A stretch of 64,000 nt of DNA, taken from positions 37,976,401 through 38,040,400 of the forward strand of contig CM049317.1 of NCBI GenBank assembly GCA_026874595.1, written 5' to 3'. A program made the position numbers and the translations under genes. This DNA comes from Sipunculus nudus (lineage: Eukaryota; Annelida; Sipuncula; Golfingiida; Sipunculidae). The notes under the pieces were generated by a model. The model searched no databases, was not told the origin of the DNA, and saw nothing but the letters and a program-made list of their open reading frames with translations. Below, piece by piece: positions 12,443-64,000 of the stretch. Numbering within the stretch: the first letter of the stretch is position 1; every line of letters starts with the position of its first letter.

Positions 12443-13038
12443 AATTATACCTGCCGAATGCAGCCTTTTATTATATATTATTTTTTCATCTTGATGAAAG
12501 TTGAAGTTACACCATATTTCTAATACGTCATCGAGAAAGGTCTTCAATGTTCATGTATTTTTTTTAGTATCTCTGAATTTTATGTAACCTCTAAAGAGTA
12601 ATTCCCCCTTCACTTTAAACTTTGTATTTACGAGAGAGAGGGGGCGCTAGTGTTCCAGTGCACACACATGTTAATGAGCTCTCAATGAAATTTAATATTT
12701 CTTTTGGAATTCATCATGTTGTGAGCTGAAAGGTAGATGGACAGTACCTGAGGAGTTAAGCCATCAACTCCAAAGGGCAGAAAAGTTGGTATTTGCTTAT
12801 AATACAAGTATAAACTTGTTGTAAAAGGAAATCTCTGTGGACATTGTGCACCAACAGTTATGTACACATGTACCTGCCGCCGTGAACCAATATGTGCATG
12901 GAAAAAATTAGAGTCATCTATTGATGCTGAGGAACACCTATCCCCCACTGCAAGGTATTTATCAATGTATACATTTTGATAAAATTGAAATTACAGGCCT
13001 GTAGCAAATTATGTGTATGATACTACATGCTGAGGAGA
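12443..13038. other. No gene seen; may include LINE-A 5' UTR
   Basis: This contains a short GAGAGAGAGGGGGCGCTAG block near 12,635 and no convincing coding sequence. The 5' boundary of LINE-A probably lies somewhere in here, but no target duplication could be defined. Confidence 0.4.
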
Positions 13039-25284: not shown

Positions 25285-28280
25285 CAAGGGACCCATGGGT
25301 CACGGCGCTCAGCTGATCGTGATTGGACTATAAATGTTTCTCCACTGTGATACTATATGGAGTCGAAAAAGCTTATGAATATCATGGACATGTTGGGCTA
25401 TTATAAAGGAATGTAATGTAATTTGTGAGTAAATGATAAATGAAATTACCTGACTGATGGATTAATAGAGTAAAATATAGTGGTTTATTTTTATTTATTT
25501 AGGAGGGGTTGAAAATCGTGATATATGTGAGCAAATATGAATGCAATGACAGCAGTAATAAGCAGTAGTAGAATGATGATAAGGCTATTTGTTGAAGGAT
25601 CTAAAGTGTATGGTAGTCTGCAAGCTTTCAGTTTGACAGATATGAAGTTATGGTTAACTATGCTGATGAAGTGATTTATAAATTTGTGACTGTATGACAC
25701 AATATCTCTTTAGTCTTGACAAGGTACATTATTGTGATGCCCACTATGTCTACATATTACACAATATTGACATAATTTCTGGCATGTACATAGGTACCTA
25801 TGGATGAATAGTTATACAAATTCTAAATATATGATTGCAAACTAATACTCTGACAAGACTGTCATGAAGAAAGTCTGTCAGTAAAGTTTTGAGATACTGT
25901 GATGCATATGAAAATTTACAGATGGACAGGCAAGTGGACAGAATGGACTAATACCTTTATTTCACTTTCAAGGGAATAATGCATTTAAGTTTATATATAA
26001 GCCTATTTGTTTTAAGCATATCCACTTTTTCCATTAAGAAGTTTTCATCTGAATCAATTTTTTTTATTTACAGGTTTTATAAAATTTTAATAAAAAACTG
26101 AAAATATAAGTTAAAATATTAGAATAGTTGCAAAAGTTGCAATCATTATATATACAGAGTAAAAAACTGAAACTATAAGTTTAAATATTAGAATTGTTGC
26201 AAAAGTTGCAATCATCATATATCCAGAGTGTAGCTCATACTGGGTCATATTATGCATACACATATATTTTATTATTTTTAAATCATAAATGTTTAAACTG
26301 AATTTATAAGAAAATAATGCCACAACATGGCATCTACAAGAATATTCCTTGAATCACTATTAAAAAGTTTTGCACACTGGAGTTTTCAGTACGTGCTTAA
26401 TTTTATTCACCAAAATAAAATAAAAGATTCAGTAAATTTGATAAAATAAAACATCTTTTCAAATAAAGTATACACACTGTTGGTTGAATGAGGGACAAAC
26501 AATATCATTGTGCTAATTACTATCCCAGTTTTAATTTATTACTGGAATTAATAGTCAATTTCACACCTGGTGAAGTTTTTACTCTTCTGAAGTAAGGAAT
26601 TACTTATCTGATAAACATCCACACTTTCACAGCAATACACCACTTTGTGGACACAATTTAATGTACACTTTAATCATTGTAACCCTGGTGGTACAATACA
26701 AAATCTAAAAAGTAGCATAGCCTAGAATAAGAATGAATCAAATACAGAAAATAATAACATTCATCTAGTTTATACACCATCTGGGGGGGGGGGGGAGTGC
26801 AGGGCAGAGGGGAAGCCTGCTGGTAGTGGCCAAGCTTAGCCAAGGCAAGCTGGGTGGGCTAGATGTAAACAACACTTGACATGGTGTATGAAAACGTGAA
26901 TAAAAGCTATTCTTTCCAATCAATTTCTTTGAAATTTCAGATTTTAAAAGATTAAATCCTTATGTTTATATGCTGTGAAAATTAAATCAACAGTGCCAAA
27001 GTTGGACAAAATTTCAGGTATTGATTTTTTATTTATGCAAATAACTTGAAAAAATTGCAAAATTCATATCTATTCATTGGGTAAACAATTGAATCTTGGT
27101 TAAATAAAGTTATATTCCTGAAAAAAAGTCTCTAGGTTCAGCAATTCTCATGTTAGGTGAGTAAATAAATTTCCTGTTTTTTTTTAAAAACTGCATTATA
27201 TTTTGGCACATAACTTCAAAATAATACCCAATACTGACCTAATTTTTGGTATGTTCATAGAAATGTATGAAAGAATGTGATTACTAAATATGATCAAAAA
27301 CAGATCAGTGGTTTTGATATTAGGCAGCCTTGAAGTGTAACAATGGCTTTTTTTATGGAAAATGGAGGTTTTTCCTTAATATCTCAAAGGAACGAAGTCC
27401 TAATGATCTAATTTTCGATTTGGTAGGAGATTTTGGGGACATCTAAAATTATGCCAACAGCCTGGGGAGCATAGAGATGTGCACTGAATGACCTACAGTC
27501 ATCAAAGTGGACTGCTTGACAATGTAAGGGAATACAACAAGAGCCTCTAAAAAATTCAATTACTAGCCTAATTTTGCAGCTTTTATTTTCAAATTTCAGA
27601 TTTTAACAGATTAAATCCTTATGTGTACATGCTGTGAAAATTAAATCCACAGTACTTACAGGAAAAAAAACGTGCCGTGGCCAAAGTTGGGCAAAATTTA
27701 AGGTACCAACTTTATATTTTTGCCATTATTTAAAAAAATTTAACAGATTTTGATCTAATTTTTGGTATACAATTAAATTTTGATTAATTAAAGTTGTATT
27801 ACTGAAAAAAAGTCCCTACCTTTAACACTTTTGGTCTCAAGTGACCAAATATCTTTCCTGATTTTTTTACAAAGTCCATTATGTTTGGGCCCATAACTTT
27901 TTTAAATTAAACAATACTGACTTAATTTCTGGCATTTACATAGGAACTATATAGAGGAACATTTATGGTAAATATGAAGAAAACCAGATGAGTGGTTTTG
28001 ATATTAGGTAGTCCTGAAGTGTAAAAATAGATTTCTAATAAAAAATTGTGGTTTTTCCTTAATATTTCGAAGGAACGTAGTCCTATTGACCAAATTTTCG
28101 GCATGGTGGGAGATTTTGGGGACATCTAACTGTATGCCGAATTTCAGATTCGTAGGTCCAACGGTGTCGAAACGTGCCAGTCTTACGGATGGACATCCAG
28201 ACGAACAGACAGACCGACGGACGGACGACGGACAATGGACCACGACTATAGCTCAGATGACTTATAGTCAGCTGAGCTAA
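25285..28280 (+). mobile_element. Second family-A left end and shared 3' body
   Basis: CAAGGGACCCATGGGTCACG with GCTCAGCTG starts at 25,285 after the flank CTTGAATA. The paralog near 1,604 runs through CTTGATTAATATCTACAG without interruption. Bases 25,320-26,850 are specific to this copy. A 13-base G run is at 26,783. From about 26,900 the body is the common 3' module. Confidence 0.7.
26093..26230 (+). repeat. Tandem duplication of ~71 bp
   Basis: AAAAACTGAAAATATAAGTT...GTTGCAAAAGTTGCAATCAT occurs twice in a row with small changes. It is non-coding. Confidence 0.7.
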
Positions 28281-29326
28281 AAATAGGTGGTATTAATGCT
28301 ATTTTGCATAATTTCGAAGTAACAGCTGTACCAGGCAAAATTCCACTGTTTTATAAGGAAGGTTTTAGAGACTGGGCTTCATTTAATAGTAAAACTCCAG
28401 AAACCTATCAAGAGGTTTTGAGAGAGCTACTCTGGAATAACAAATATATTTTAGTTAACAAAAAGAGTATATTTTACAGAGAACTCAGTGAGAGTGGAAT
28501 TAACTATGTATCTGACATTTTCAGCCATAATGGACATATGCTTAAAGTTGAAGAGGTTTTAAATCAGTATCAAAGTATACCAAACATTACTTATTTCAAC
28601 TGGGTACAAATATACCACTCATTACCAATATCGTGGCTAAGGATACTTAAAAATGAAAATTACCTTACTGATGTTACCAATGATCTTAAGCATATATCTG
28701 ATACTACTTCACTTATTACCAAGACTATATATGAAAAGATAATTGAAAAGAAATTAGAGTCTTCATCAGCATTTTATTTTTGGAAGAATAATCACAAACT
28801 GGATGAAAAACGGTGGGGGTATTGCTTAGAAGCAATTTATGGGGTCAGTATAGATGCTTATTCCCGTGAGTTCCAATATAAACTGCTAAATAATTATTTG
28901 CCTCTAAATCAAATTTTATTTAAATGGAATCTAAAGGACACTGATAAGTGTTCATATTGTGTAGAAACTGCAGAATCAGTACAACATCTATTTTATGAAT
29001 GTAGTAGAGCCACTTCTCTTTATATTAGAATTTTTAAATATTTTTCTGGCAGCAAAGTAATATTACCAGAATGGAAACTTCATGTTGCATTGTTTGGTTG
29101 TGTACCTGTTAATAATGATAATCTGTTAGTTAACCAAATTTTGCTTGTAATGAGGATAATATTGTATAAAAATCGTGAATCAACTCATGGAAATTTAGAA
29201 AGAGCAGTTGTACAGCTGCTCCATAAATTTTTACAATACTTGAAAAATATATATATGATAGAGATTAGAATTGCAAGAAGACACAACATATTGAATTTCA
29301 TCAAGAAAAATGGGAACCTGTTTTAA
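28281..29326 (+). pseudogene. LINE-A ORF2, C-terminal portion
   Basis: This is the longest intact LINE piece, about 345 codons to the stop at 29,326. It starts with IGGINAIL, followed by LPLFYKEG-like and DWASF blocks typical of the region after the RT. Near the end is a CCHC-type zinc motif (CSYC, then QHLFYEC) characteristic of L1/Tx1-type ORF2 proteins. The final LLHKFLQYLKN helix and a basic tail close the protein. It lies immediately after insertion II and is the continuation of the frame left at 23,206. Few changes disrupt this part, so the LINE itself is not very old. Confidence 0.9.
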
Positions 29327-31235: not shown

Positions 31236-31282
<47 letters not shown>

Positions 31283-32530
31283 ATATTATATATATATATA
31301 TATATATATTATATATTATATATATATATATATATATAATGAATGTATAATTTTTATTATTATCATTATATATACTAAATATTATATTTCAAATTTTGAA
31401 TAATAATAATGATTTAGAAAAAATAAGTTATTTTGTGAATCCTAAGCAAGGTTTAGATATTACACTGATTATAGTCCGCCACGTACGGACTCCATTTATC
31501 TGTGAGAGAGAGAGTTATCTGGCGGTGAGAGTTCAACCTGCGGTACATGGAGGGACCTGTAACATGAAATACCACTGCTTGTTGGGCGATAGAGAAGCAG
31601 TCTTGTATTTATATATAGAATTAAACTTATTATGTATCAAATTAAATTGATATATCACCTTTATGTGCACCTGTAAATGTTTTTTATCCTTTAAACTGCC
31701 GGGGTTTAGTTGTTGCATGCGCAACAGGACACCGCCGGTTAAGGAATCCCATGCAAATTAGGTGGGCAATCTATGCAAAAGAGGAATTCAGGGAGGCTTT
31801 TCCCAGGAATGCCAGTGTCGTGCACTATGATAGACCATATTTTCATAAGCATCCTTCCCATCATACATAGCGTGTCATCAATTATGCTAATTGCCTATTG
31901 GCTCTTTAAACTTGAAGGCTCTAGTGGCCCGACGGAGACGAAGTTATATCCATACTTTATTACATACTGATCATTCAGCAAAAGTTTGGTCCCAACGGGG
32001 TCCAAGCATCTGTAACAATAATAATATTTGGGGTTTGACTGGTGTCCTCACGTTACACAAGGCATTTTCATATCTTAGGGGTTGTACGGATCCATACAAC
32101 CTTGGATAGTATAGACTCTCCCCGCCAGAGGCTGCAGTGCTTGATCATTGTTTACTATAATAATTAATATATGTCAGCTCTGCAAGACTGCAGCAACATT
32201 GATTAGTAAATGGATCGAAAGTCTTTAATTCCATTAGTTAATTTATTTCATTTGCAATATTATTAAATTATTCTCTGAAAAGTGGGGGATGATTACATTG
32301 ACCATCCGCCCCTTGCCAAAAAGTGGGTGGTATATATACACCCCCCCCCCCCTCCCCCCCCCCCCCCTCCATATTGACGCCCCTGCCAATGACTATGTTA
32401 CCTACCCCGTGCGAGGATGTTGACATGATCCGAGGGGGTACAATTTTCCTTGTTGACTTAGAATTCCTAAATAACTGGTAAAAATTAGACTTAGCCAACA
32501 AATGTCTATGGAGGATACGTTCATGGATAG
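31027..32530 (-). pseudogene. Unassigned open frame split by the hAT element
   Basis: On the minus strand an open frame runs from about 32,530 (ITIHERILHRHLLAK) to 32,386 and, once the hAT element and one target copy are discounted, continues in the same frame from 31,137 to a stop at about 31,027. An AATAAA lies just after the stop, and a GTAAGT lies upstream on the minus strand. It might be an exon or retrocopy of a gene or an unrecognised LINE-B segment. No known domain was recognised, and chance cannot be excluded for about 85 codons. Confidence 0.3.
31138..32385. mobile_element. Non-autonomous hAT element with 8-bp target duplication
   Basis: The ends are CAGTGGCGTCAAT and ATTGACGCCCCTG, an imperfect terminal inverted repeat of the CAGTGGCGT type common in hAT elements. 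Both flanks carry the identical 8-bp duplication CCAATGAC (31,130-31,137 and 32,386-32,393). Inside are poly-G/poly-C runs next to both ends, a long TA microsatellite (31,241-31,339) and no transposase. The 1,248-bp length fits a deleted derivative. Confidence 0.92.
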
Positions 32531-44860: not shown

Positions 44861-45259
44861 TAGAGAACATATATTCTTGATAAAACTGTCATAAAAGAAA
44901 TTCGCTTAACATAGTTTACACTGTTAAAAGTTGCACGTAAAATAACGGTGCTTTGCACCGGCAGCAAAGTTGACAGTGCAATGCACCGTTATTTTACGTG
45001 CAAAGAAATAACGCAGTGCGTTAAATAACGTCGCATTGCACCGTAATTTTACAGCGCTTTGGGACGTAAATAAACGGCGCTTAGCCACGGGAAATAACGG
45101 GCATCTGTTATTTTACGGGACAATATGCCGTTATTTTACAGTGCTAAGAGACGTGAATAAACAGTGATTTAAACTGGAATCAGGGCATTGCACCGTTATT
45201 TCACGGTGCTTTGATATGTAGAATAACAAAACATTGTTACTTTAATAAATAACAGTGCT

Positions 45260-45556
45260 TTGCACTTGGAGCTAGACACTGTTACAGGTTTCCATAATCT
45301 TTCTCAAAACGTTTCTGTCTTGTCACTCCGGACGAACCCTTTATTTGTATCTGTGTACTTCAGGTTTCTCATAACATGTTTTTTAGATTTTACCAGTAAA
45401 AATATTACGAACGAAGTCAGACCTCCTTATGATGATAGAGTTGTAACTTTCTGTTTGACAGTCAAGTGTCCCGAAAATCAAATCAGGATATCCACAGAGG
45501 GAAATGCATCTTGGCTAATTTGGGAAATGGCATTAAAAATGCATGCTCACACATAA
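45260..45556 (+). CDS. Conserved 98-codon open frame in TIR element copy 1
   Basis: The open frame MHLELDTVTGFHNLSQNVSV...WEMALKMHAHT is also open in copy 2 (56,206-55,859, minus) with only a few differences and no frameshift. It runs opposite to the main presumed transcript and starts just inside the subterminal repeats. No domain was recognised. A hydrophobic stretch (FVSVYFRFLITCFLDF) is present. Preservation in two young copies is weak evidence for coding. Confidence 0.3.
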   Translation: MHLELDTVTGFHNLSQNVSVLSLRTNPLFVSVYFRFLITCFLDFTSKNITNEVRPPYDDRVVTFCLTVKCPENQIRISTEGNASWLIWEMALKMHAHT

Positions 45557-46270
45557 TATCACACCACTTCTTTATTGTATGAAATATTCAACAGGTCATC
45601 AACATGTACAACACGTGTACTTAATGTATATAGATATTCAGATTATATTGATCTTCCAAAAGGCATCATTAGGAAGCAAACATATTAAAACATTTTGACC
45701 ACACTGCCTGGCAGTTAAATCGTCTCCAACTAAACGTATAACATTTGGCAATTAGTGCAATATTATTATGATTACTATTATGAATGCTGTGTGTAATCTC
45801 ATTAAGTTTGCTGATCTTTTTAACAATAGGGCCCAAATCTATTTATAATGTATCTTTGAAAAATAGATAAAAGTGCATTAGTAAATTTATAGTGTTGTAA
45901 ATTAATGGTATCTTTAAAGTAAAAGATGGTCAGAACACAAGTCAAACAATTGAAATGGATTTAACTTATATGTCACCAAATCTTTCTACAGTAAAGGCAT
46001 CTACTTTGTGTGAAGCTTCTGATAATGAATTCCAAAATAAAGGTCCTTGGTAAATAAATGATTTTTGCATCAATTAAATTCGAACTGGAGGGAGTTGAAG
46101 AGAATGCCTACACTGTAACAAGGGTGCAAATGTAAACGTTTTTCCATTAAAAATAATAAGATAATTACCTGATTTAATTAAGGTACTTAAACACAAGAAT
46201 ATTAAAAGTGAAATAGTCGTTAAATGATATTTCCTATATTGTTGAATATATTATAGAGGAAAATGCAGCA

Positions 46271-46600
46271 TTAAAACATTAAATCTGACCAACAAGCTCT
46301 ATTGACAGTGGGAGGGCAGTTAGAGGTGCATTCAATGACCCCAAAATCAAGAAACCTGAAGGTCTTTTTAGTCCCTTGGGATACTCCAGGGTAAATATCC
46401 AAAATGACGCATAGCAAGCCTCCAGTGGAAGTAGAAATAACTTGCATGGGTTGAGTTTCTGGCCATCCACCATATGTTACACTGATGTTACAGTCCCCAT
46501 CTTGAACATTCACAGGTGTTGGAGATCTCATTCCCTGCATACAAAATAATAAACAGAAAAGAGAGATTGTAAATGTAAGAAACATGAGAGAAATATGCAA
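46271..46600 (-). CDS. Last-exon open frame of TIR element copy 1
   Basis: A splice acceptor (TTTTGTATGCAG) at 46,535-46,546 precedes GMRSPTPVNVQDGDC, which stays open for about 86 codons (VTYGGWPETQPMQVISTSTG, then ECTSNCPPTVNRACWSD) to a stop. In copy 2 a two-base insertion breaks the same frame. Joined to the preceding 81-nt block (46,948-47,028) the frame continues with DTAFTVWRMQGYGIADGGE, although a stop lies near the start of that block in this copy. The product is unknown. It may be a fragment of a captured cellular gene. Confidence 0.35.
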   Translation of the reverse strand: MHISLMFLTFTISLFCLLFCMQGMRSPTPVNVQDGDCNISVTYGGWPETQPMQVISTSTGGLLCVILDIYPGVSQGTKKTFRFLDFGVIECTSNCPPTVNRACWSDLMF

Positions 46601-46947
46601 GACTATAGTTCAGTGCAATTATCCCTTTAATTTTTATATTTTTTTAGATTTTTTTCAAAGTCTGACGCTCTATCAATTTACATTACAGAAAATAAACTTT
46701 TGTTCTTTCTTCACAAAATACAAACAATAGGGAACCTTAAAAAGGGAAAATAATTATACATTATTATATCAAATATATCTTTACATTTACATTACAGACA
46801 ATAACTGGCCAAGCTTTGTTCTATCTCCGAAAAAATAAACAATTTCAACATTTTTCTTTATATATGTATTTACTTAAAAAAGGTTAAAACTATCTTTAAT
46901 ACTTGCTGAATATATTAACACAAATATAATAGTTTTGAAAGAATTAC

Positions 46948-47028
46948 CTCTCCTCCATCTGCAATCCCATATTATCCTTGCATTCTCCAAACAGTGAAGG
47001 CAGTATCCTGTATATAGGAGCTTTACTT
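46948..47028 (-). other. Exon-like block B, copy 1 (81 nt)
   Basis: The block is bounded by TTTGCAG upstream and GTAATT downstream on the minus strand, with the identical boundaries in copy 2 (54,354-54,434). Twenty-seven codons fit exactly. All three frames remain partly open, so the coding frame is unresolved. Confidence 0.45.
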
Positions 47029-47056
47029 CTGCAAATACAAATACACAGACAATGCA

Positions 47057-47060
<4 letters not shown>

Positions 47061-47103
<43 letters not shown>
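47061..47103. repeat. TA microsatellite in TIR copy 1
   Basis: An uninterrupted (TA)n run lies upstream of block B. The inverted counterpart is at 54,277-54,321 and has a similar length. Confidence 0.9.
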
Positions 47104-47107
<4 letters not shown>

Positions 47108-47969
47108 GTGATACGAATCAGTTTTAAAATCATACTCAATGACTGAAAGTTGATCGATTAATAATCAATTTTTTTCATTTTATGTGCCATATTATTAACA
47201 TAAAATCTGTTGTATAGATAGCTAAATATTGACAGAGTAAATTAAGCCTAGCATGTACATCACACTGAAAGGTCAAGACTATACTTGTTAATACTTATTC
47301 ACTGCATAAAGATAACATTTATACTGTTTCCTGTTAAGTGTCCATCTTTCTAAAATCTATGAGAGAGTTAGAATATTTCATTGGAATAAAGAGACTTCTT
47401 TTGAATGTGCACACCTGATCGTATATGAAAGCTTATGGAAAAAAATACATGATTTGATGATTTAATTATGAAATGTCCTTTTCCAGAATGATTTCTACCG
47501 ACAATAGACCTGACGATGTATTTTTAAAGGCACAAATGAAAGTATGTGTAAATATGAAGTAATTAACAGTAAGGCTATGGGCTTGGATTTTATTTATTGT
47601 AACTGTAAATAATTATATTATGAATATTTAATAACCAGAATATCTGCAATGTTTTATAGGGAGTAATATAATATAATGTTCCAAACTGCATACAATTAAA
47701 AAAAATAGCCAATAATCAGCAGGTTTGACAAATGACACTGTAAGGTTAGAGATGGTCAGGTTAGCGTGGCTCAGCTCCAAGCAGCAAGCCAAAAAGTTTA
47801 TTAGAATAAAAATGAATGGAGAGAATGAGAAACAGGCAGGCGAATTTAGCTCAGCATCACTGCTAATGTTCAATATGTAAGATACTTGTTTCACAGATTA
47901 TTAAACTCATCAGCTTATTCAAATTGCCATGGACTTTACAAAAGAAAATATGATCAAATTCAAACTTAC

Positions 47970-48152
47970 CTTGGTGTACCTTTTCTGCATTGTTCTCTGC
48001 TAGGAATTTACCCTGCAACTGCTTGCCAGTGTAGTTGTGCACCTTGCACATCTTGCATTTGTACTTTGTTCACAGCTCTAAGTTTGGTAAGGCGTGGAAC
48101 ATTTACGTCATCTTTCCTCTAATCATTGATGCATGTATAGCTCTCTGAACAC
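47970..48152 (-). other. Exon-like block A, copy 1 (183 nt)
   Basis: The block follows ACTTGTGCAG and ends at AAG/GTAAGT on the minus strand, a strong donor. One frame reads KCKMCKVHNYTGKQLQGKFL, with a CxxC pair. Copy 2 has the same block at 53,230-53,412. In-frame stops upstream of that stretch suggest decay or a different reading frame. Confidence 0.45.
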
Positions 48153-48485
48153 CTGCACAAGTAGAACAAATTCTAGGAGTATATAAAAACAGAACTGATA
48201 AACATGTAACCAACGAAAGACAATATCAGCACCAGGCATATTAAAAATATTTACAAAGTGCAGGTATATAAATTAATAAACAAAAGTGCTATATTGCATA
48301 TAAAAATAGTAAATATTGGGTCAACAAATGTTTTTACTCAGTGTATAAACAGAAAGGTGCAAAAACAGCATCACATGTGTACAAGGATTTATAAATAGGA
48401 AGCAATATATGCAGTACAGCCTTTATATTACAAAATGATGTAACATTTGTAATTGCATTTACATATACTAGCTATTATAATATAA

Positions 48486-48990
48486 CAAGGGCTACAGGCA
48501 TAATGCAAACCTGCGTAATCTTTCCGGGTTCCCTGATGATAAACTTGACTATTATTTGAAAAGTTATTATTTTTTAAGGTGTGACAAGTACATGTATAAA
48601 GCAATTTTGAATCTTAGTACAAGTATAAATGCGCTCAGTCTGATGCATACTGATGGATGAGATGTGGTATACCCCATTACAAAGGCCTATATGTGAGTGA
48701 GGGAGTGTAAAAAAATCCCATCCAACCCACATTATGAAAGGAAACTGCAACCATGTACAACAGAGTTGGGGGGGGGGTGTCTCTGGCAAATTTTTAGTTG
48801 AGCAAACCTGGACATTACAGATGGTTTCACTAGGCCTTGCTAGAACAATTTGTGTGTGTGTGGGGGGGGGGATCAATGAGCTATGTTTTCCAACAAAAGT
48901 TCAATAACTTTAGTACTGGTATCAGTGAACGACAGTGACAGAGGTGGTGTCTTCCCTGTAGCTCAAATGACTTACAGTCAGCTGAGCTAA
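48486..48990 (+). mobile_element. Short family-A element inside TIR copy 1
   Basis: It starts CAAGGGCTACAGGCATAATG and ends with the family hairpin plus CAGCTGAGCTAA. It lies in the intron between blocks A and the 93-nt exon. The matching inverted copy is at 52,378-52,889, so the insertion predates the duplication of the TIR element. Confidence 0.75.
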
Positions 48991-49026
48991 AAAGGCAGTA
49001 TATTATTATGTGATGTTTAAACTTAC

Positions 49027-49119
49027 ATAATTCCTATTCTTAAGAAATAGGAAAGTTGCCATGATGGTATCCAAATCTTCTTTGAATTTGCCACACTGAT
49101 GGAAATGCTTGATCATTTT
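49027..49119 (-). other. Exon-like block, copy 1 (93 nt, 31 codons)
   Basis: The minus strand reads KMIKHFHQCGKFKEDLDTIM and onward to KNRNY, flanked by CAG before and GTAAGT after. Copy 2 (52,249-52,341) differs by one residue (I to V). Both boundaries are phase 0. This is the most convincing single exon in the element. Confidence 0.55.
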
Positions 49120-49492
49120 CTGAAAACATAAACAGTATTTGGCTGTGCCTTAGCAGCCTTAATTTTCAGGCTCTCTCTCCCCCTCTCTCTCTCTCAAAAA
49201 GACTGGCTAAAATGTTAGCACTTTGGCTAGCATGGTATGTTTTTTTTCTTCTAAAACATGTTAAGAAATTTAGGAAATTGTCTCAAAGCTGTTAATTATT
49301 TGTTTAGTTTGTGTTTACTCTCTGTTTAAGCATCTGTTAAAAATATTTAAAAAAAAATAAAAAGACTTTGATATCTTAATTTCTCTGGTTGACATGTAAG
49401 TGGGAAAACCTTATTCAAGGCCTCATTTAAAATCTAGTAAATAAATAATTCAAAACTGTTTTCAGTGGTGCCTTTACCAATATTTCACCTTT

Positions 49493-49499
<7 letters not shown>

Positions 49500-49545
<46 letters not shown>
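49500..49545. repeat. TA microsatellite in TIR copy 1, intron 1
   Basis: A (TA)n run has its counterpart at 51,834-51,871 in copy 2. A 15-base G run follows at 49,619-49,633. Confidence 0.9.
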
Positions 49546-49547
<2 letters not shown>

Positions 49548-50548
49548 CATGTATATTTATACCATTCATGCATGATATACACCCAGACATGGCCAGGTGT
49601 GTGTGTTAGTGGGTCGGAGGGGGGGGGGGGGGGTTTGCTTCCTTTTTCCTAATTGGCAATTCCCTGAAACTAAAAAAGCCTTTATCATTAATGATAAACA
49701 TTGGCATCAATGCAGGGAATGGGGGTTATATATCCCCCCTCCCCACTTTTTTAACAAGGGGGGATTGGGCAATGTAATCATCCCCAACACTGATATTGAG
49801 CAAGTATAACAATTACTTTTATATATTGGACATGTAATATATTATTAATTAGAAAACTTGACTTTGTTTCCATTTCTGAGTTAACTGAAATATAAGGTTA
49901 TCTAATAATCTAAACATGGTTTAGAGTTGACATTTAATGGAAACATAAAACCTGCACTTAATTAATATATAATATCAACATCACACAAATATCACACATT
50001 ATAAAAGGTGTATATATATAATATATATACACATATATACATAATATATATTTCCATTTCAATCACTCTTCTACCCCTGCCAGTGACAGTCGCCCCCCCC
50101 CCCCCCAACTGAGGGAACACACGAACGAGACTGGCCTCGTACCACTATACCATTACCAACGTACACTATACACCAGTATTAGAATAACAACTAACACAGT
50201 AAACAGGTTTATGCCTACATATTAAAGAAGAACATTTTACCAATGAAGATGCTGGGTAACTTCTGCGACTTTCAGCAGCCAGCAGACGGACAAAAATGGC
50301 TCCTCTTCCCGCCGTGGAGTCAAAAGATCCAGGATGTTGACGTCATGAGTGGCCCCGCTGATCACATGACGCGCGGTTTATTTCATCTGTACCGTCTGCT
50401 TTACACACGTGTCACACCATTTTCACAGACGCTCATCATTTTACGTTGCATTTGCGCGTTATTCAACGCACAAGAGCGTCTACATTGCAAAGCGGCGTAA
50501 ATTTACAGTCTTATGCGCCGTTATTTTACGGTAATTTTTAACAGTGTA

Positions 50549-50825
50549 GAGTGTTTGGTTGGCTTCCATGCAGTCTTTCCTTTTAAACCTTGCTACCCAA
50601 GTGCCGGAGATTTCCGTTTTAAATCTGGCAAACGTCTGTTTTCAAAATGATCTAAATTCCGCTTTTTCCAGCAGTATTTACTGAAGCGCGGGGCAAACAG
50701 TGTTAAATTACAAATCATAAGCATTAATACATTGTTTCATGAGCTTATTTTAATACATGTATTTGTATCATTTCAAGTGCTCTTGGCAAGATCCAACAAG
50801 CGGCATCCAAATACTAAAACAGTCG
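50549..50825. other. 277-bp unique spacer between the inverted elements
   Basis: This is not repeated in the window. It separates two independent TA target duplications, showing two insertions rather than one long hairpin element. Confidence 0.8.
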
Positions 50826-51829
50826 TACACTGTTAAAAATTACCGTAAAATAACGGCGCATAAGACTGTAAATTTACGCCGCTTTGCAATGTAGACGCTC
50901 TTGTGCGTTGAATAACGCGCAAATGCAACGTCAAATGATGAGCGTCTGTGAAAATGGTGTGACACGTGTGTAAAGCAGACGGTACAGATGAAATAAACCG
51001 CGCGTCATGTGATCAGCGGGGCCACTCATGACGTCAACATCCTGGATCTTTTGACTCCACGGCGGGAAGAGAAGCCATTTTGTCCGTCCGCTGGCTGCTG
51101 AAAGTCACAGAAGTTACCCTGCATCTTCATTGGTAAAATGTTTTTCTTTAATATGTAGGCATAAATCTGTTTACTGTTTTAGTTGTTATTTTAATACTGT
51201 GTAATAGTGTATGTTGGTAATGGTATAGTGGTACGAGGCCAGTCTCGTTCATGTGTTCCCTCAGTTTGGGGGGGGGGGGGGCGACTGTCACTGGCAGGGG
51301 TAGAAGAGTGATTGAGTTGGAAATATATATTATGTAGGCTATATATGTGAATATATATATTATATATATATACACATTTTATAATGTGTGACATTTGTGT
51401 GATCTTGATATTATATATTAATTAAGTGCAGGTTTTATGTTTCCATTAAATGTCAACTCTAAACCATGTTTAGATTATTAGATAACCTTACATTTCAGTT
51501 AACTCAGAAATGGAAACAAAGTCAAGTTTTCTAATTATTGATATATTACATGTCCAACATATGAAAATAATTTTTACTTGCTCAATATCAGTGTTGGGGA
51601 TGATTACATTGACCAATCCCCCCTTGTTAAAAAAGTGGGGGGGGGGGATATATAACCCCAATTCCCTGCATTGATGCCAATGTTTTTCATTAATGATTAA
51701 GTCTTTTTTAGTTTCAGGGAATTGCCAATTAGGAAAAAGGAAGCAACTCCCCCCCGCCCCCGACCCACAAACACACACACCTGGCCATGTCTGGGTGCAT
51801 ATCATGCATGAATGGTATAAATATACATG

Positions 51830-51876
<47 letters not shown>

Positions 51877-52248
51877 AAAGGTGGAATATTGGTAAAGGCA
51901 CTATTGAAAACAGTTTTGAATTATTTATTTACTAGATTTTAAATGAGGCCTTGAATAAGGTTTTCCCACTTACACATGTCAACCAGAGAAATTAAGATAT
52001 CAAAGTCCCTTTTTTTTTAAATATTTTAACAGATGCTTAAACAGAGAGTAAAACACAGACCAAACAAATAATTAACAGCTTTGAGACAATTTCCTAAATT
52101 TCTTAACATGTTTTAGAAGAAAAAAACATACCATGCTAGCCAAAGTGCTAACATTTTAGCCAGTCTTTTTGAGAGAGAGAGAGAGAGGGAGAAAGAGCCT
52201 GAAAATTAAGGCTGCTAAGGCACAGCCAAATACTGTTTATGTCTTCAG

Positions 52249-52341
52249 AAAATGGTCAAGCATTTCCATCAGTGTGGCAAATTCAAAGAAGATTTGGATA
52301 CCATCATGGCAACTTTCCTATTTCTTAAGAATAGGAATTAT
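52249..52341 (+). other. Exon-like block, copy 2 (93 nt, 31 codons)
   Basis: TATGTCTTCAG precedes and GTAAGT follows. It reads KMVKHFHQCGKFKEDLDTIM and continues to FLKNRNY. If spliced to 53,230 in phase 0 the frame ends after VFREPYMHQ, which would give a protein of about 40 residues. Alternatively an exon is missing. Confidence 0.55.
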
Positions 52342-52377
52342 GTAAGTTTAAACATCACATAATAATATACTGCCTTT

Positions 52378-52889
52378 TTAGCTCAGCTGACTGTAAGTCA
52401 TTTGAGTTACAGGGAAGACACACCTCTGTCACTGTCGTTCACTGATACCAGTACTAAAGTTGGTATTGAACTTTTGTTGGAAAACATAGCTGATTGATCC
52501 CCCCCCCCCCCCACAAATTGTTCTAGCAAGGCCTAGTGAAACCATCTGTAATATCCAGGTTTGCACAACTGGAAATTTGCCAGAGACCCCCCCCCCCCAA
52601 CTCTGTTGTACAGGGTTGCAATTTCCATTCATAATGTGGGTTGGATGGGGTTTTTGACACCCCCTCACTAACATATAGGCCTTTGTAATGGGGTATACCA
52701 CATCTCATCCATCAGTATGCATCAGACTGAGCGCATTTATACTTGTACTAAGATTCAAAATTGGTAGTACTTGCTTTATACATGTACTTGTCACCCCTTA
52801 AAAAATAATAACTTTTCAAATAAAAGTCAAGTTTATCATCAGGGAACCTGGAAAGATTACGCAGGTTTGCATTATGCCTGTAGCCCTTG
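52378..52889 (-). mobile_element. Short family-A element inside TIR copy 2
   Basis: Inverted counterpart of 48,486-48,990, beginning TTAGCTCAGCTG and ending in AGCCCTTG. Poly-C runs are at 52,499 and about 52,590. Confidence 0.75.
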
Positions 52890-53229
52890 TTATATTATAA
52901 TAGCTAGTAAAAATAAAATGAAATTACAAATGTAACATCATTTTGTAATATAAAGGCTGTACTGCATATATATTGCTTCCTATTTATAAATCCTCGTACA
53001 CATGTGATGCTGTTTTTGCACCTTTCTGTTTATACACTGAGTAAAAACATTTGTTGACCCAATATTTACCATTTTTATATGCAATATAGCACTTTTGTTT
53101 ATTAATTTATATACCTGCACTTACTTTGTAAATATTATTAATATGCCTGGTGCTGAGATTGTCTTTCGTTGGTTACATGTTTATCAGTTCTGTTTTTATA
53201 TACTCCTAGAATTTGATCTACTTGTGCAG

Positions 53230-53412
53230 GTGTTCAGAGAGCCATACATGCATCAATGATTAGAGGAAAGATGACGTAAATGTTCCACGCCTTACCAAAC
53301 TTAGAGCTGGGAACAAAGTACAAATGCAAGATGTGCAAGGTGCACAACTACACTGGCAAGCAGTTGCAGGGTAAATTCCTAGCAGAGAACATTGCAGAAA
53401 AGGTACACCAAG
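53230..53412 (+). other. Exon-like block A, copy 2 (183 nt)
   Basis: Acceptor CTTGTGCAG, donor AAG/GTAAGT. The frame from ATG 53,280 reads KYKCKMCKVHNYTGKQLQG. In copy 1 the same frame has a stop just before this stretch. Confidence 0.45.
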
Positions 53413-54272
53413 GTAAGTTTGAATTTAATCATATTTTCTTTTGTAAAGTCCATGGCAATTTGAATAAGCTGATGAGTTTAATAATCTGTGAAACAAGTAT
53501 CTTACATATTGAACATTAGCAGTGATGCTGACCTAAATTCGCCTGCCTGTTTCTCATTCTCTCCATTCATTTTTATTCTAATAAACTTTTTGGCTTGCAG
53601 CTTGATGGAGCTGAGCCACGCTAACCTGACCATCTCTAACCTTACAGTGTCATTTGTCAAACCTGCTGATTATTGGCTATTTTTTTTTTTTATTTTATGC
53701 AGTTTGGAACATGTTTACTCCCTATAAAACATTGCAGATATTTTGGTTATCGATTATCAATAATATAATTATTTACAGTTACAATAAATAAAATCCAGGC
53801 CCATAACCTTACTGTTAATTACTTCATATTTACACATACTTTCATTTGTGCCTTTAAAAATACATTGTCAGGTCTATTGTCTGTAGAAATCATTCTGGAA
53901 AAGGACATTTCATAATTAAATCATCAAATCATGTATTTTTTTCCATAACCCTTCATATACGATCAGGTATGCACATTAAAAAGAAGTCTCTTTATTCCGA
54001 TGAAATATTCTAACTCTCTCATAGATTTTAGAAAGATGGGCACTTAACAGGAAACAGTATTAATGTTATCCTTATGCAGTGAATAAGTATTAACAAGTAT
54101 AGTCTTGACCTTTCAGTGTGATGTACATGCTAGGCTTAATTTACTCTGTCAATATTTATTTATCTAGACAACAGATTTTATGTTAATAATATGGCACATA
54201 AAATGAAAAAAATGATTATTAATCGATCAACTTTCAGTCACTGAGTATGATATTAAAACTGATTCGTATCAC

Positions 54273-54325
<53 letters not shown>

Positions 54326-54353
54326 TGCATTGTCTGTGTATTTGTATTTGCAG

Positions 54354-54434
54354 AAGCAAAGCTCCTTTATACAGGATACTGCCTTCACTGTTTGGAGAAT
54401 GCAAGGATAATATGGGATTGAAGATGGAGGAGAG
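54354..54434 (+). other. Exon-like block B, copy 2 (81 nt)
   Basis: Acceptor TTTGTATTTGCAG, donor GAGAG/GTAATT. In this copy the frame joining to the last exon is open (QSSFIQDTAFTVWRMQGYGI). Confidence 0.45.
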
Positions 54435-54881
54435 GTAATTCTTTCAATACTATTATATTTATGTTAATATATTCAGCAAGTATTAAAGATAGTTTTAACC
54501 TTTTTTTAAGTAAATACATATATAAAGAAAAATGTTGAAATTGTTTATTTTTTGTGGAGATAGAACAAAATCTTGGCCAGTTATTGTCTGTAATGTAAAT
54601 GTAAAGATATATTTGATATAATAATGTATAATTATTTTCACTTCTAAAGGTTCCCATTGACCATAAGAAAACTATTTTTGTAGTTATTGTTTAAATTTTG
54701 TGAAGAAAGAACAAAAGTTTATTTTCTGTAATGTAAATTGATAGAGCGTCAGACTTTGAAAAAAATCTAAAAAAAAATATAAAAATTAAAGGGATAATTG
54801 CACTGAACTATATTCTTGCATATTTCTCTCATGTTTCTTACATTTACAATCTCTCTTTTCTGTTTATTATTTTGTATGCAG

Positions 54882-55147
54882 GGAATGAGATCTCCAACAC
54901 CTGTGAATGTTCAAGATGGGGACTGTAACATCACTGTAACATATGGTGGATGGCCAGAAACTGTCAACCCATGCAAGTTATTTCAACTTCCACTGGAGGC
55001 TTGCTATGCGTCATTTTGGATATTTATCCTGGAGTATCCCAAGTGACTAAAAAGACCTTCAGGTTTCTTGATTTTGGGGTAATTGAATGCACCTCTAACT
55101 GCCCTCCCACTGTCAATAGAGCTGGTTGGTCAGATTTAATGTTTTAA
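54882..55147 (+). pseudogene. Last-exon open frame, copy 2, frameshifted
   Basis: The acceptor TTTGTATGCAG is followed by the same frame as copy 1 (MRSPTPVNVQDGDC). A two-base insertion near 54,961 then shifts it, and the original frame resumes as PMQVISTSTGG to the stop at 55,147. Differences between the copies include replacements such as S to T, G to V and C to G, which do not suggest strong protein-level constraint. Confidence 0.35.
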
Positions 55148-55858
55148 TGCTGCATTTTCCTCTATAATATATCAACAATATAGGAAATATCAGTTAACGA
55201 CTATTTCACTTTTAATATTCTTGTGTTTAAGTACCTTAATTAAATCAGGTAATTATCTTATTTTTTTATGGAAAAACGTTTACATTTGCACCCTTGTTAC
55301 AGTGTAGGCATTCTCTTCAACTCCCTCCAGTTCGAATTTAATTGATGCAAAAATCATTTATTTACCAAGGACCTTTATTTTGGAATTCATTATCAGAAGC
55401 TTCACACAAAGTAGATGCCTTTACTGTAGAAAGATTTGGTGACATATAAGTTAAATCCATTTCAATTGTTTGACTTGTGTTCTGACCAGCTTTTACTTTA
55501 AAGATACCATTAGTTTACAACAATATAAATTTATTGATGCACTTTTATCTATTTTTCAAAGATACATTATAAATAGATTTGGGCCCCATTGTTAAAAAGA
55601 TCAGCAACCTTAATGAGATAACACACAGCATTCATAATAGTAATCATAATAATATTGCACTAATTGCCAAATTTTATATGTTTAGTTGGAGACGATTTAA
55701 CTGCCATGCAGTGTGGTCAAAATGTTTAAATATGTTTGCTTCCTAATGATGCCTTTTGGAAGATCAGTATAATCTGAATAACTATATACATTAAGTACAC
55801 GTGTTGTACATGTTGATGATCTGTTGAATATTTCATACAATAAAGAAGTGGTGTGATA

Positions 55859-56206
55859 TTATGTGTGAGCATGCATTTTTAATGCCATTTCCCAAATTAG
55901 CCAAGATGCATTTCCCTCTGTGGATATCCTGATTTGATTTTCGGGACACTTGACTGTCAAACAGAAAGTTACAACTCTATCATCATAAGGAGGTCTGACT
56001 TCGTTCGTAATATTTTTACTGGTAAAATCTAAAAAACATGTTATGAGAAACCTAAAGTACACAGATACAAATAAAGGGTTCGTCCGGAATGACAAGACAG
56101 AAACGTTTTGAGAAAGATTATGGAAACCTGTAACAGTGTATAGCTCCAAGTTCAAAGCACTGTTATTTATTATAAAGTAACAATGTTTTGTTATTCTACA
56201 TATCAA
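55859..56206 (-). CDS. Conserved open frame in TIR element copy 2
   Basis: Counterpart of the frame at 45,260-45,556 with 17 extra N-terminal codons (MICRITKHCYFIINNS). It overlaps the 3' end of the main transcript only at its edge and is convergent with it. The function is unknown, and it may be fortuitous. Confidence 0.3.
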   Translation of the reverse strand: MICRITKHCYFIINNSALNLELYTVTGFHNLSQNVSVLSFRTNPLFVSVYFRFLITCFLDFTSKNITNEVRPPYDDRVVTFCLTVKCPENQIRISTEGNASWLIWEMALKMHAHT

Positions 56207-56500
56207 AGCACCGTGAAATAACGGTGCAATGCCCTGATACCAGTTTAAATCACTGTTTATTCACGTCTCTTAGCACTGTAAAATAACGGCATATTGTCTA
56301 GTAAAATAACAGATGCCCGTTATTTCCCGTGGCTAAGCACCGTTTATTTACGTCCCAAAGCGCTGTAAAATTACGGTGCAATGCGACGTTATTTAACGCA
56401 CTGCATTATTTCTTTGCACGTAAAATAACGGTGCATTGCACTGTCAACTTTGCTGCCGGTGCAAAGCACCGTTATTTTACGTGCAACTTTTAACAGTGTA

Positions 56501-58214
56501 AGCAATTTTAGACATTTAACAGTGTGAGATTTCAATGCTACCGTAATGCTAGAAACCAGGCTTATTTTTTTACAGATTATTTCACAAGAGGGTTAACGCA
56601 CAAAATCCGGGGTTCGTCACCTGAAAACGTCTGCATTATTTATATAATTATTACCCGCTACTGGATTTATTGTAAGCGAGGTGCCATCCACGAGCTTCCG
56701 TGTACATGTCAACTGTTAACCTCTGCAGTCACCCGTGAACATTTACGCGCTAAATACGGCACCCTGTGAAAGAGTCACCTGTTTTAATATGTATATTAAC
56801 TGCTGCTTGATTGATTATTGCTACTTTCCTAGCCTTCTTTGCGCGAGTGCTGTGCACCACATAAGAGCCAGTAGGGACTTTCACATCTGTGGGCAGGGAC
56901 GCTGTCAGCCACATCGGACGATCATATTACTGTACGCACGTTTCATGTGATTTGTAAAAGATAGTTTACGGCAAAAATTACATTACAACTACAAATTTTT
57001 TCGCGGTCGCGGAATATCACTGGCTCAACAAGCGGCAAGTCGCTGTCTCTGATTAGGTTTTATTTAACCCAAATAAGTGCCATCCCCGAACCAAAGTCGT
57101 TTGTACAACTTGAACCCAAGGCGCAACAGGAGACCATCTTTTCTGTTTTGTTTTGACACGCTGTTACAAAGAAAGCATGCAGTATGCATACAGCGAGCAC
57201 TGACACAAAGCAAACAGCGTGCAGCCAGCAGTGCTTACGGCCCGGCGTGGCTGCTAATCACAGGTCACACATACAATGGTGATACGTACATCTCTGATCT
57301 TAAGAAACTCATTTTTGCATGACAGAAGTAACGGCAACATTGTACTACTTAAATAAACTTTGCACCAGTTTAAGGAAATATTTAATATATGTTCTAATAT
57401 GCATGTATTACAAAAAATGTGCACTTCTTATATCTTTGCATGTGTATGAATCATACATTGAGAGAAATTTAATCATGTTAAACTGATTACATTTCCATCT
57501 GTCATTTGTAATAAATGAGACAAATACTGGCATAAATATGTATTGAATTATTAAAAAATCGCCAATAAAGATGTTACTTTGTTGAAAAATTGTTAGAAAA
57601 AGATATGCAGATCAATACTTTTTTATTATTTTTTGTTTCCGGACCCTGACTGTTTGCCATTTCAAATCCTTATTTAAATGCCCTTTATTGGATGTGCTGT
57701 GGAATATACATTTTGTACATTCTTCGTTTACCTGTGGAAACTGAACTGTTCTGGATAAATGATCAAGGAGTCAATATTCATTGAGTATACCTTTCTATCC
57801 ATAAGAAATATTTACGCAATGGGCTTTATCAGATGAATATTTTATTTTATACACACTGATACATGGTTTGATCACATTTGCAATTATTTATTCATTACTA
57901 GTATGAAAATGTACGTTTAAATATCATTATACCAATATATTACTATATTGATCGAATTACATAATATGTCCTAGAAATGTATTTCACAACAAAGAGCTAG
58001 ACACCCATTATCAAACTGTACAAAACGGAGGGACATTTAATTGTATATACAGCAAAACTTGTATAAGTTCCCTGTAATATACATGGCATATGCAAGAAAT
58101 GTAGCTGAGACCAACAGAAAATAGCAAATACAAGGTAACCCTGTATGTAAGAGGCATTGAGCTAGTGGGAGTGAGCGGGACGTTGTATAATTAACTCCTT
58201 TGACCTGATCATGT
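56501..58214. other. No recognisable gene
   Basis: A stray AACAGTGTGA just outside the TIR element (about 56,518) may be a remnant of an older end. The remainder is AT-rich with short open frames only. Confidence 0.45.
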
Positions 58215-59181: not shown

Positions 59182-60715
59182 ATAGCAGATTTCAAACCTG
59201 AGACTTTTGTTGACGATCCCGACCATGATCAACTTGAACAGTTGTCAAAAGAACAGTTGTTGCGTTTCGGACAACACTTAAGGCTTAGTGTGAAGAAAGC
59301 TTTGAGAAAGCCTGATATCATTGCTAAAATCATGCAAGATCTAGTTAGCAAAGGTTTAATTGAAGAGACTGAAGTTGAAACATCAAAAATTGACAGCCTT
59401 GCTATGCAATTAGAATTTAAACAGTTGGAAATGCAACATCAGTTAGCATTAAAACAGTTAGAAAGAGATAAGGAAAAACAGAGAGGAGAGAGTGAAGAAC
59501 GTGAAAGGTTAGAAAATGACAGACTAAAAAATGAAATAGAGAAAAACTAGAAAAAGAAAAAGAAATTGAGTTAAAACGACTTGAGTTAGAAAGACTTAAA
59601 GTAGAATATAGTCTAAGTGCTGCCCCAACTCACGGTTTTATTGTTACTAAACACATCAGACTTGTCCCACCTTTTCAAGAAAAATAGATCGATAAATATT
59701 TCTAACACTTTGAAAAGGTAGCTGAAAATTTAAAATGGCCTAAGGAAAATTGGACTATGCTGTTACAAAGTGTATTGACTAGCAAGGCCAGATAAATTTA
59801 TACAGAGCTTTCAATAGAAGCTGCTGCTGACTATGACCTGGTAAAATGGTTAATCCTAAAAGGTTATGAGTTAGTTCCGGAGGCTTACTGCCAGAAATTC
59901 AGTTGTTGGGAAAAGCGCAAAGAACAGACCTATGTCGAATTTGCTAGGACAAAAGAGCAGTTGTTTGATCGCTGGTGTAGTTCTAAAAATGTGATGAAAG
60001 ATTATGACAATTTGCGCCAGTTGATTTTGCTTGAGGAATTTAAGCGCTGCATTAACGCAGATGTTAAAACTTTTCTTGATGAGAAAAGTCCTGAAACACT
60101 TGACATTGCTGCTCAATTAGCTGATGATTATTCATTAACACACAAAATGTCCTTTACTAGCAAATCAAACCAGTCATTCACAAACAAGAATGTAAATCAG
60201 TATGTTCAAAAGAAGTTTAAAGCGCAGTCATCCAGTACTAGTAGTCCTGATAGTTCAGCAAAGTCCATTACTACACCTCAGCCCACGTCCACTGTGTCCA
60301 AGTCCAACAAAGACCAGTCATTTTCAAAGAAATTTGTAATTACTGCAAGAAGGAAGGTAATCTAATATCTGAATGCTGGAAACTTGCAAATAAACCAAAT
60401 AGCAAACCTTCTAGTTTTCTTTCAAAGTCTATGTATAGCATAGTACAAGAGCCAGGCTCTTTTCATGTAAATAAGGGGTACAACTCCTTTATTGACTCCA
60501 ATAAAGAGTTTGATGCTACGGAGGCCCAAGTGCCGTCTGAATCCAAACAAGAATCCGTAGCTTGGGGGGTAAAAACCTCAGTTGATTCCTGCGAGGAATT
60601 TAATAAGGCTAGGTCTTTTCAAGACTCCTGCGAGGAGTATCCTCTAAATCAGGCTAAGTCCTTTTATGACTCTTGCGAGAGTATTTCAAATGAGGCCAGG
60701 TATCAAACACATTAA
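59182..60715 (+). pseudogene. Broken gag with SCAN-like capsid region
   Basis: The codon at the expected start is ATA (59,182), followed by ADFKPETFVDDPDHDQLEQL and a Glu/Lys/Arg-rich coiled coil. A frameshift near 59,545 and three in-frame stops (about 59,685-59,795) interrupt the next part. The capsid region that follows (HFEKVAENLKWPKENWTMLL, YELVPEAYCQKF, YVEFARTKEQLFDRWC) resembles the capsid of Gmr1-like Gypsy elements, from which the vertebrate SCAN domain is thought to derive. After another one-base shift a zinc knuckle reads CNYCKKEGNLISEC, with Asn where His is expected. The tail has acidic DSCEE repeats. It cannot make a full protein. Confidence 0.8.
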
Positions 60716-62591: not shown

Positions 62592-64000
62592 TTATGACTC
62601 GGCTTCCAATAGCAGACAACATCTTTGGACTGACCGTTTGTATTCTCCGTTCTTGGTTCTGACCTTGACGTTCCTGATGATGCCGTCCTGCCCCGGATAG
62701 ACCTCGAGAAGTCTGCCCATGTCCCACCTGCCTCGTGGCGCTGCTGAGTCTACGAGCAAGACAACATCTCCGGGTTTCAACTGTCGCCCCTTTGTTTTCC
62801 ATTTGACTCGTCTGGTCAATGTCGGTAGATATTCTGATATGAAACGTTGCCATATCCGTTTGACCATGGCTTGTACGAATTCGAATCGCTTGTGTAAGTT
62901 CTTTGTTTCCTCAAATGGGCCTTGTGGTATGTCAACAGTAGCTCGTCCCGACAGAAAATGGTTTGGTGTTAGTGGCTGTAAGTCGTTTGGATCATTCGGA
63001 GAATAACCTATGGGTCTTGAATTTAACAAAGCCTTAACCTCTGCGAAAACTGTAGACATCTCGTTCCATGTCAGCCTTTGGTCTCCCATTACTTTCATTG
63101 CACGTTTTACCTGCTTTATGAGGCTTTCGTAGAATCCCCCCTGATTCGGACTAAGTGGTGTGATAAACTTCCACGTCACCGAATGTAGCATCGCAAATTC
63201 CTTGAGTTCTTGACGCCCTGCTTGCACGAGTTTTTTAAGTTCCTTTTCTGTTCCGACGAATGACGTCCCATTGTCACTAATAATTGTAGTCGGCCATCCG
63301 TGCGTGCTAACAAAACGCCTGAGAGCCTGGAGGAAGGCCTGGGTTGATAAGTCGTCGACAATCTCCAAATGAACCGCGCGGACGGTTCCACACGTGAAAA
63401 TTGCTCCCCAAGCCTTTCTGGATTGGGTCCTTCCGAACTTTAGGTTGAATGGCCCAAATAAGTCAACGCCTGTTGTTGTAAAGGGTGGTGATTGCACCCT
63501 CATTCTCTCTGGGGGAAGATCCGCCATGAGTGTAGTGTGTGGTGGTTGCCTTAACTTCCGACAAACAATACATTTCCTGACAATTAATTTTGCTAAATTC
63601 CGCCCTCGCGTTATCCAGTACCTCCGTCTTGCTTCACATAATGTCCTTTCTGCTCCTGGATGGATCGCCTTTGAATGGGCATCAGCCATGACCAACTTCG
63701 CTATATGGCTTGAGCCTGGTAACAGAACTGGATGCACTTGGTCATACGACAAATTTGAACGTTTAAGCCTGCCTCCTACTCTTACAATCCCTTCCTATTC
63801 AAATGGGGAAAGGTCACTGTATTGTTGCCTCCAGTCACCCAAGTCCTCTTGGGCTTTCAAGATCCAGTGTCTCTCTGATGTCTCAATTTCGCGCGGTGAT
63901 AATGTGTCCCTCCGCTTATCCTTATTTCTGGCATTGTGCAGAAACCTGTAACACCAGGCTGTGACTCGAAGCATCTTATGCCAATCAGAAAAATCTCTGC
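62592..64000 (-). pseudogene. BEL/Pao pol, integrase end
   Basis: This would encode the integrase that inserts the retroelement DNA. From 63,752 to 62,592 there are 386 open codons. They contain an HHCC zinc-binding module (H26, H31, C61, C64 counted from that segment), the DDE catalytic core (D97 in GVDLFGPF, D160 in SDNGTSF, E209 in GGFYESLIKQ) and a C-terminal DUF5641-like region (KWKTKGRQLKPGDVVLLVD, then GRWDMGRLLEVYPG). The frame continues upstream to the window edge (RETSERHWILKAQED-like region), with a single TAG at 63,795-63,797. All catalytic residues are present. One nonsense codon makes this copy probably inactive unless it is read through. RT and gag lie beyond the window. Confidence 0.92.

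Follow-up and report, generated by a model that had tools for sequence, protein, structure and literature searches.

The 64,000-nucleotide stretch of the Sipunculus nudus genome considered here (C12:37976401-38040400, hereafter the window) contains a near-palindrome of 11.6 kb. It consists of two copies of a 5.65-kb transposon-like element whose inner ends face each other. Copy 1 (44919-50546) and copy 2 (50828-56498) give a single full-length inverted match in blastn, with 5,710 columns at 95.2% identity when gaps are counted. A MAFFT alignment of the two arms contains 157 mismatches among 5,590 aligned bases (97.2% identity without gaps, Kimura two-parameter distance 0.0286) and 35 gaps. The mismatches are scattered over the entire length, and identity per 250-column window ranges from 94.0 to 99.6%. 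The ends of the element are CACTGTTAAAA...TTTTAACAGTG; all four arm ends read TA followed by CACTGTTAAAA, or the complement, and the flanking sequences past the TA are not alike. The inner and outer ends are unlike each other, and the terminal inverted repeat (TIR) is imperfect. The spacer of 281 bp (277 bp without the two TAs) has no match elsewhere in the window. A preliminary description of the window had proposed two full-length elements placed head-to-head, with the same ends, a flanking TA for each copy and a short spacer of 277 bp, all of which is borne out. It had also included in the match the microsatellites and an internal 'family-A element' (that description's own label). The microsatellites are indeed common to both arms, but their lengths differ.

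The repeats GTAAAATAACG/CGTTATTTTAC are subterminal in copy 2, with three exact occurrences within the outer 700 bp and one within the inner 700 bp; the middle of the element and the window outside the arms contain none. The matches of copy 2 elsewhere in the window consist of two TA microsatellites, both to 31251-31355, one 50-bp match (84%) to 32282-32330, and matches of 27-41 bp between a AGCTCAGCTG-type stretch near 52375-52415 and several other repeats. A third TTTAACAGTG is located at 56515-56524, 16 bp beyond the outer end of copy 2, with no attached element recognised.

The element belongs to a family of ~120 copies with intact ends. This number derives from counts of exact ends in the 1.43-Gb assembly, where CACTGTTAAAARTTRC occurs 242 times (6 in the control) and CACTGTTAAAAATTRCCGT, the inner end, 118 times (0 in the control). 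The exact TA-flanked end TACACTGTTAAAARTTRC is found 175 times, compared to 0 in the control. The sequence TACACTGTTAAAA has 478 sites, as opposed to 301 in the reversed sequence used as its control, and facing pairs ~5.6 kb apart are frequent among the 100 sites listed. Copies were found via their CAC..GTG ends, and any copy with other ends would escape. Sixteen of the first 20 stretches fetched are copies of the 5.65-kb family, and three (L014, L015 and L018) represent a related 2-kb family sharing CACTGTTAAAA ends. One of these three, L014, carries an insert of ~5.6 kb whose frames, 929, 458 and 383 residues long, appear by eye to be of the non-long-terminal-repeat type. The remaining stretch (L020, C2:93589306-93599300) is an unrelated tandem array with a period of ~6.5 kb, whose copies are 99.9% identical over 3,450 bp. 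The family also includes a 96-bp derivative (L060, C6:65616260-65616355), which by eye joins ~30 bp of the inner end to 66 bp of the outer end and has AA on both sides. Among the paper titles listed, none describes a transposon with the literal end sequence, and none on bivalve or mollusc CACTA families describes a CACTGTTAAAA-ended family.

The flanks of these copies indicate how the element inserts. The first 19 flanks read are all TA, but are uninformative on target choice because TA was part of the query. When the outer end itself was used as the query (147 first-look candidates, 40 scored), TA precedes 31 of 40 matches and another dinucleotide the other 9. Both flanks were read for eight of these nine, and in all eight the dinucleotide is identical on the two sides: AA, CA and AA for L032, L033 and L034, CT for L031 with L036, and CA, TC, TT and TG for L037, L038, L039 and L040 (with just three bases read at one flank of L039). 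The remaining copy (C9:59614563) is 16.5 kb away from L037 and, judging from this spacing, resembles a local duplication of it. Three further copies lacking TA, found by position, have duplications of CA, TG and AA, so that identical 2-bp flanks are seen in 11 of 11 such copies read on both sides. Of the 242 exact ends, 175 (72%) have TA. Insertion thus duplicates 2 bp of the target, with TA preferred but not obligatory. Other TA-flanked copies, which the preliminary description had proposed to search for, do exist; TA is one outcome of a 2-bp duplication and not a fixed rule.

The relationship of the two arms was assessed from distances and a tree of 28 of the ~120 copies, aligned with copy 2 as anchor. 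The closest sampled relatives of copy 1 are L034, 8.1 Mb away on C12 (p-distance 0.0022), L037 (0.0048) and L035 (0.0066). That of copy 2 is L033 on another contig, C5 (0.0154). In comparison, the two arms are separated by a distance of 0.0274, which is the 41st percentile of 325 pairs within the main subfamily. The tree places the arms in separate clades, with support of 1.0 for copy 2 with L033, 0.99 for copy 1 with L034, and 1.0 for copy 1 with L034, L035 and L037. Smaller alignments with fewer copies agree that the arms are not each other's nearest relatives. The arms therefore represent two separate insertions and not a duplication, a foldback or a local hop. This supports the preliminary description in preferring two insertions to a single hairpin; its additional suggestion of a local transposition finds no support, as both arms have closer relatives elsewhere than they have in each other. 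Copy 1 was probably inserted second, because its terminal branch is five-fold shorter (~0.002 versus ~0.010 for copy 2), an estimate that depends on sampling.

Based on these observations, it is very probable that the palindrome consists of two independent insertions, 281 bp apart and in opposite orientation, of one family of non-autonomous DNA transposons. The two copies would have been inserted separately by cut-and-paste, head-to-head, with a transposase acting in trans that would recognise the short ends and subterminal repeats and make 2-bp staggered cuts. The palindrome is thus ordinary and accidental, and not a special structure.

Consistent with a non-autonomous element, a Pfam search of all six frames of copy 2 (E up to 5) gives no domain match, including none to a transposase. 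The strand running from the inner to the outer end carries four exon-like segments bordered by AG and GT (Table 1). Their borders are kept in all covered copies, with the exception of one acceptor in one copy. The frame of E3-E5 is broken by a stop common to all 20 covered main-subfamily copies, and divergence between subfamilies is similar in the exons (7.5, 7.1, 8.4 and 16.3% for E2 to E5) and the whole element (7.4%). Some constraint may act on E2, since it alone diverges less within the main subfamily (1.1% versus 2.8%). E3 has two weak Pfam matches below the cut-off (SF3a60_Prp9_C, 14.3 bits, and T4_baseplate, 13.2), and comparison of the segments with the PDB gives one weak match (AIR2, E 0.14). 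A captured gene was considered as the source of these segments and rejected in view of the shared stop, the exon divergence close to that of the whole element, and the lack of a source gene that could be named.

The most strongly conserved portion of the element lies close to the inner end. Between the main subfamily and a divergent one (L001, L016), the 200-bp windows starting 130-150 bp from this end are the most conserved, with 0.5% fixed differences compared to 5.6% overall. Positions 120-330, a region picked by eye ahead of the scan, contain 2 fixed differences in 208 positions relative to this single divergent lineage (binomial P 0.0006). All 23 copies contain GTCATGTGA, TGACGTCA and GCCATTTT here, and 22 of them also have CACGTG; the remaining one, L031, is cut by its stretch. 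The motifs of this segment are ones that we take to be cAMP response element, E-box/USF and YY1 motifs. In both arms the exon-like segments and the promoter-type motifs are oriented outward from the spacer. If active, the inner-end promoters would produce two transcripts of the same sense and not a hairpin. The preliminary description had expected read-through from the promoter-side ends to generate long double-stranded RNA, but this does not follow from the anatomy because the promoter-like ends point away from the spacer. For a hairpin RNA, transcription would have to enter from outside and cross the spacer, or be divergent and antisense. As a pair the two copies probably have no function; they are separate decayed transcription units, each reading away from the spacer.

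Table 1. Features of the near-palindrome and its flanks (window coordinates)
Feature	Position	Strand	Basis or remark
TA, outer flank of copy 1 (2-bp target duplication)	44917..44918	.	
Copy 1 of the 5.65-kb element, promoter-like inner end at 50546	44919..50546	-	End-to-end inverted match to copy 2; nearest sampled relative L034
Copy 1 outer end: TIR and subterminal repeats GTAAAATAACG / CGTTATTTTAC	44919..45220	.	
Promoter-like segment of copy 1	50207..50416	-	Position by symmetry with copy 2
TA, inner flank of copy 1	50547..50548	.	
Spacer, 281 bp including one TA per copy	50547..50827	.	Arm alignment
TA, inner flank of copy 2	50826..50827	.	
Copy 2 of the 5.65-kb element, inner end at 50828	50828..56498	+	End-to-end inverted match to copy 1; nearest sampled relative L033
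Promoter-like segment of copy 2: GTCATGTGA, TGACGTCA (51029-51036), GCCATTTT	50958..51167	+	Falls in the 200-bp windows that differ least between subfamilies
Exon-like segment E2 of copy 2 (AG...GT)	52249..52341	+	
Exon-like segment E3 of copy 2, decayed frame	53230..53412	+	
Exon-like segment E4 of copy 2	54354..54434	+	
Exon-like segment E5 of copy 2	54882..54928	+	
AATAAA towards the outer end, present in all 23 aligned copies	55839..55844	+	
Copy 2 outer end: TIR and subterminal repeats GTAAAATAACG / CGTTATTTTAC	56200..56498	.	
TA, outer flank of copy 2	56499..56500	.	

Several other repeats occur in the window. Those at 1-2328 and 24088-28284 are dispersed, contain internal tandem repeats and are also found inside some copies of the family (the inserts of L010 and L012, the latter with a AGCTCAGCTG-type start). 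They recall elements that carry satellites, such as the Helentrons of oysters (PMC7492417). Two retroelement-like frames lie beyond the palindrome: one with a SCAN domain (59796-60365, E 2.9e-12), and one with DUF5641, an integrase zinc-binding domain and rve matches below the cut-off (62592-63794).

The family resembles a non-autonomous element of the EnSpm/CACTA (CMCT: CACTA-Mirage-Chapaev-Transib) type, because it has CAC..GTG termini, subterminal repeats and a 2-bp duplication of unfixed sequence. Subterminal repeats are a hallmark of the CACTA elements of plants. According to one account, CMCT elements have CA..TG ends, which in EnSpm/CACTA are CAC..GTG, and target duplications of 2-5 bp, a range that includes the one seen here; the fungal EnSpm families described there duplicate 3 bp, in contrast to 2 bp in this family (PMC12730594). 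Membership is not proven, because a partner of the CACTG family's own has not been found; the family differs from EnSpm/CACTA elements in that neither a transposase nor an autonomous partner was found for it. Mobilisation in trans by a transposase of this type is considered somewhat more likely than not.

Candidate partners were sought among the seven genomic matches to Transposase_21, which include loci at C5:65.96 Mb and C12:5.84 Mb. No CACTGTTA is present in the short stretches around these loci (L041-L047), and no CACTGTTAAAA in the 9.9-kb stretches L048-L050. Two of the loci, C8:57.45-57.47 Mb (L049/L051/L053) and C2:44.91-44.93 Mb (L050/L052/L054), contain elements of ~13.7 kb that are mostly 97-98% identical, with subterminal repeats and open frames of 973 and 858 residues with Transposase_21. 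The C8 element has AC on both sides, and the far end of its C2 relative differs. These are CACTA elements of the animal TRC type. TRC elements (SmTRC1 and relatives) belong to the CACTA superfamily, duplicate 2 bp, begin with CCC and encode Transposase_21 (PMC1636069). The 5.65-kb family shares with them the 2-bp duplication, and its genome also contains such an element, but its TIR begins with CACTGTTAAAA (CACTG, not CCC), and no Transposase_21 is shown for it. ISL2EU elements of the PHIS superfamily likewise duplicate 2 bp; these are AT, and the ends usually begin with GG (PMC4482050). ISL2EU and PIF-Harbinger, with duplications of AT or TWA, were rejected, as 2-bp duplications other than AT are seen. 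Of the 150 PF13359 (DDE_Tnp_4) matches scored among 701 candidates, none was found by eye beside the 100 listed of 478 TACACTGTTAAAA sites. The extra 1.3-3.1 kb in L010 and L012 (six frames) and L019 (minus strand only) have no Pfam match above the cut-off; the L019 insert has one weak match (CR_prot_dom_plant, E 0.074). All three inserts show similarity to other dispersed repeats in the window, at 1-2323, 24088-28284 and 11883-12443.

Several observations weigh against two independent insertions of a CACTA-like family. No autonomous element sharing these ends came to light, and C8, the sole Transposase_21 locus resolved at both ends, has CCC..GGG and not CACTG, while its C2 relative shows CCC at one end. 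The nearest relatives and terminal branches hinge on the copies sampled (28 of ~120). Finally, such closeness is unexpected under uniform insertion, with 0.005 pairs of inner ends expected within 700 bp, and for this reason plain chance does not fully account for the spacing.

Other close pairs are known in the family. On C1, L007 and a copy at 99348237-99353923 (duplication CA) lie 638 bp apart in opposite orientation with their outer ends facing, and are also non-sisters (distance 0.0287, 54th percentile). On C4, ~75 bp separate L018, of the 2-kb family, from a 5.6-kb copy in the same orientation, whose duplication is TG. Two more pairs, on C9, resemble local tandem duplications, with spacings of exactly 1,000 bp and 16.5 kb. 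Spacing was compared with uniform insertion for 100 listed of the 118 inner ends, dropping one member of each C9 pair and assuming 1.25 Gb. One pair is found within 700 bp (0.005 expected, P 0.005), two within 12 kb (0.09, P 0.004), two within 20 kb (0.15, P 0.01) and four within 100 kb (0.76, P 0.008), in a test prompted by the window pair, with thresholds set post hoc and a null without regional rate variation. These values are merely suggestive of copies lying closer together than uniform insertion predicts.

Such clustering could arise if new copies were steered beside old ones, for example by open chromatin at the promoter end, with inverted pairs as a by-product. The excess of pairs within 12 and 100 kb favours this, as does the C4 pair, where, as in the window, one element turns its inner end to the gap. 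However, the window pair is the only head-to-head pair of inner ends among those listed, without it a single pair remains within 12 kb, and the C1 pair faces with its outer and not its promoter ends. The uniform null also ignores uneven insertion or selection along chromosomes. Targeting is therefore considered unlikely. Clustered insertion has already been reported for miniature inverted-repeat transposable elements, such as carrot Stowaway, whose non-autonomous copies lie close together (PMC3695323). The resemblance is in this proximity, the elements here differing in being 5.65 kb long, with one 96-bp derivative on C6. A more elaborate version, which we consider distinctly improbable, is that selection maintains a host-type RNA polymerase II promoter in a CACTA-like element that has no recognisable transposase and whose exons decay, and that the open chromatin of this promoter draws later copies alongside. 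If this were true, facing pairs would arise regularly in the course of the family's life cycle.

Assignment to Tc1/mariner or another strictly TA-targeting superfamily is suggested by the frequent TA flanks (at 31 of the 40 outer ends scored and at 175 of the 242 exact ends). This is disfavoured because copies lacking TA duplicate other dinucleotides (11 of 11 read), showing that duplication is not limited to TA; copy 2 also lacks a transposase domain. It is thus highly unlikely, and Tc1/mariner was rejected on the copies fetched without a TA requirement, which carry other identical dinucleotides on both sides. Slightly less credible still is a local origin, in which one arm was copied from the other in place, by local transposition or inverted duplication, and then diverged. 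The very short spacing and inverted orientation fit such an origin, but it is already contradicted by the closer relatives of each arm elsewhere, an arm-to-arm distance average for the family and the separate flanking dinucleotides of each arm; the inverted C1 pair is non-sister as well. It could be rescued only by assuming that a third copy had overwritten one arm from end to end by gene conversion. A false join of two copies during assembly is the least probable: near-identical inverted repeats are difficult to assemble, but these arms differ at 157 positions and 35 gaps, sit in different clades, have identical flanking dinucleotides for each arm and enclose a separate spacer.

An eye-catching palindrome of 11.6 kb is thus resolved into a pair of separate insertions. 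The target rule is corrected from TA to a 2-bp duplication preferring TA, which changes the likely superfamily. With very similar copies (0.22% apart), a natural 96-bp derivative and a conserved promoter-like segment, the family is a possible system in which to study how elements without a transposase keep moving, and whether such elements attract one another.

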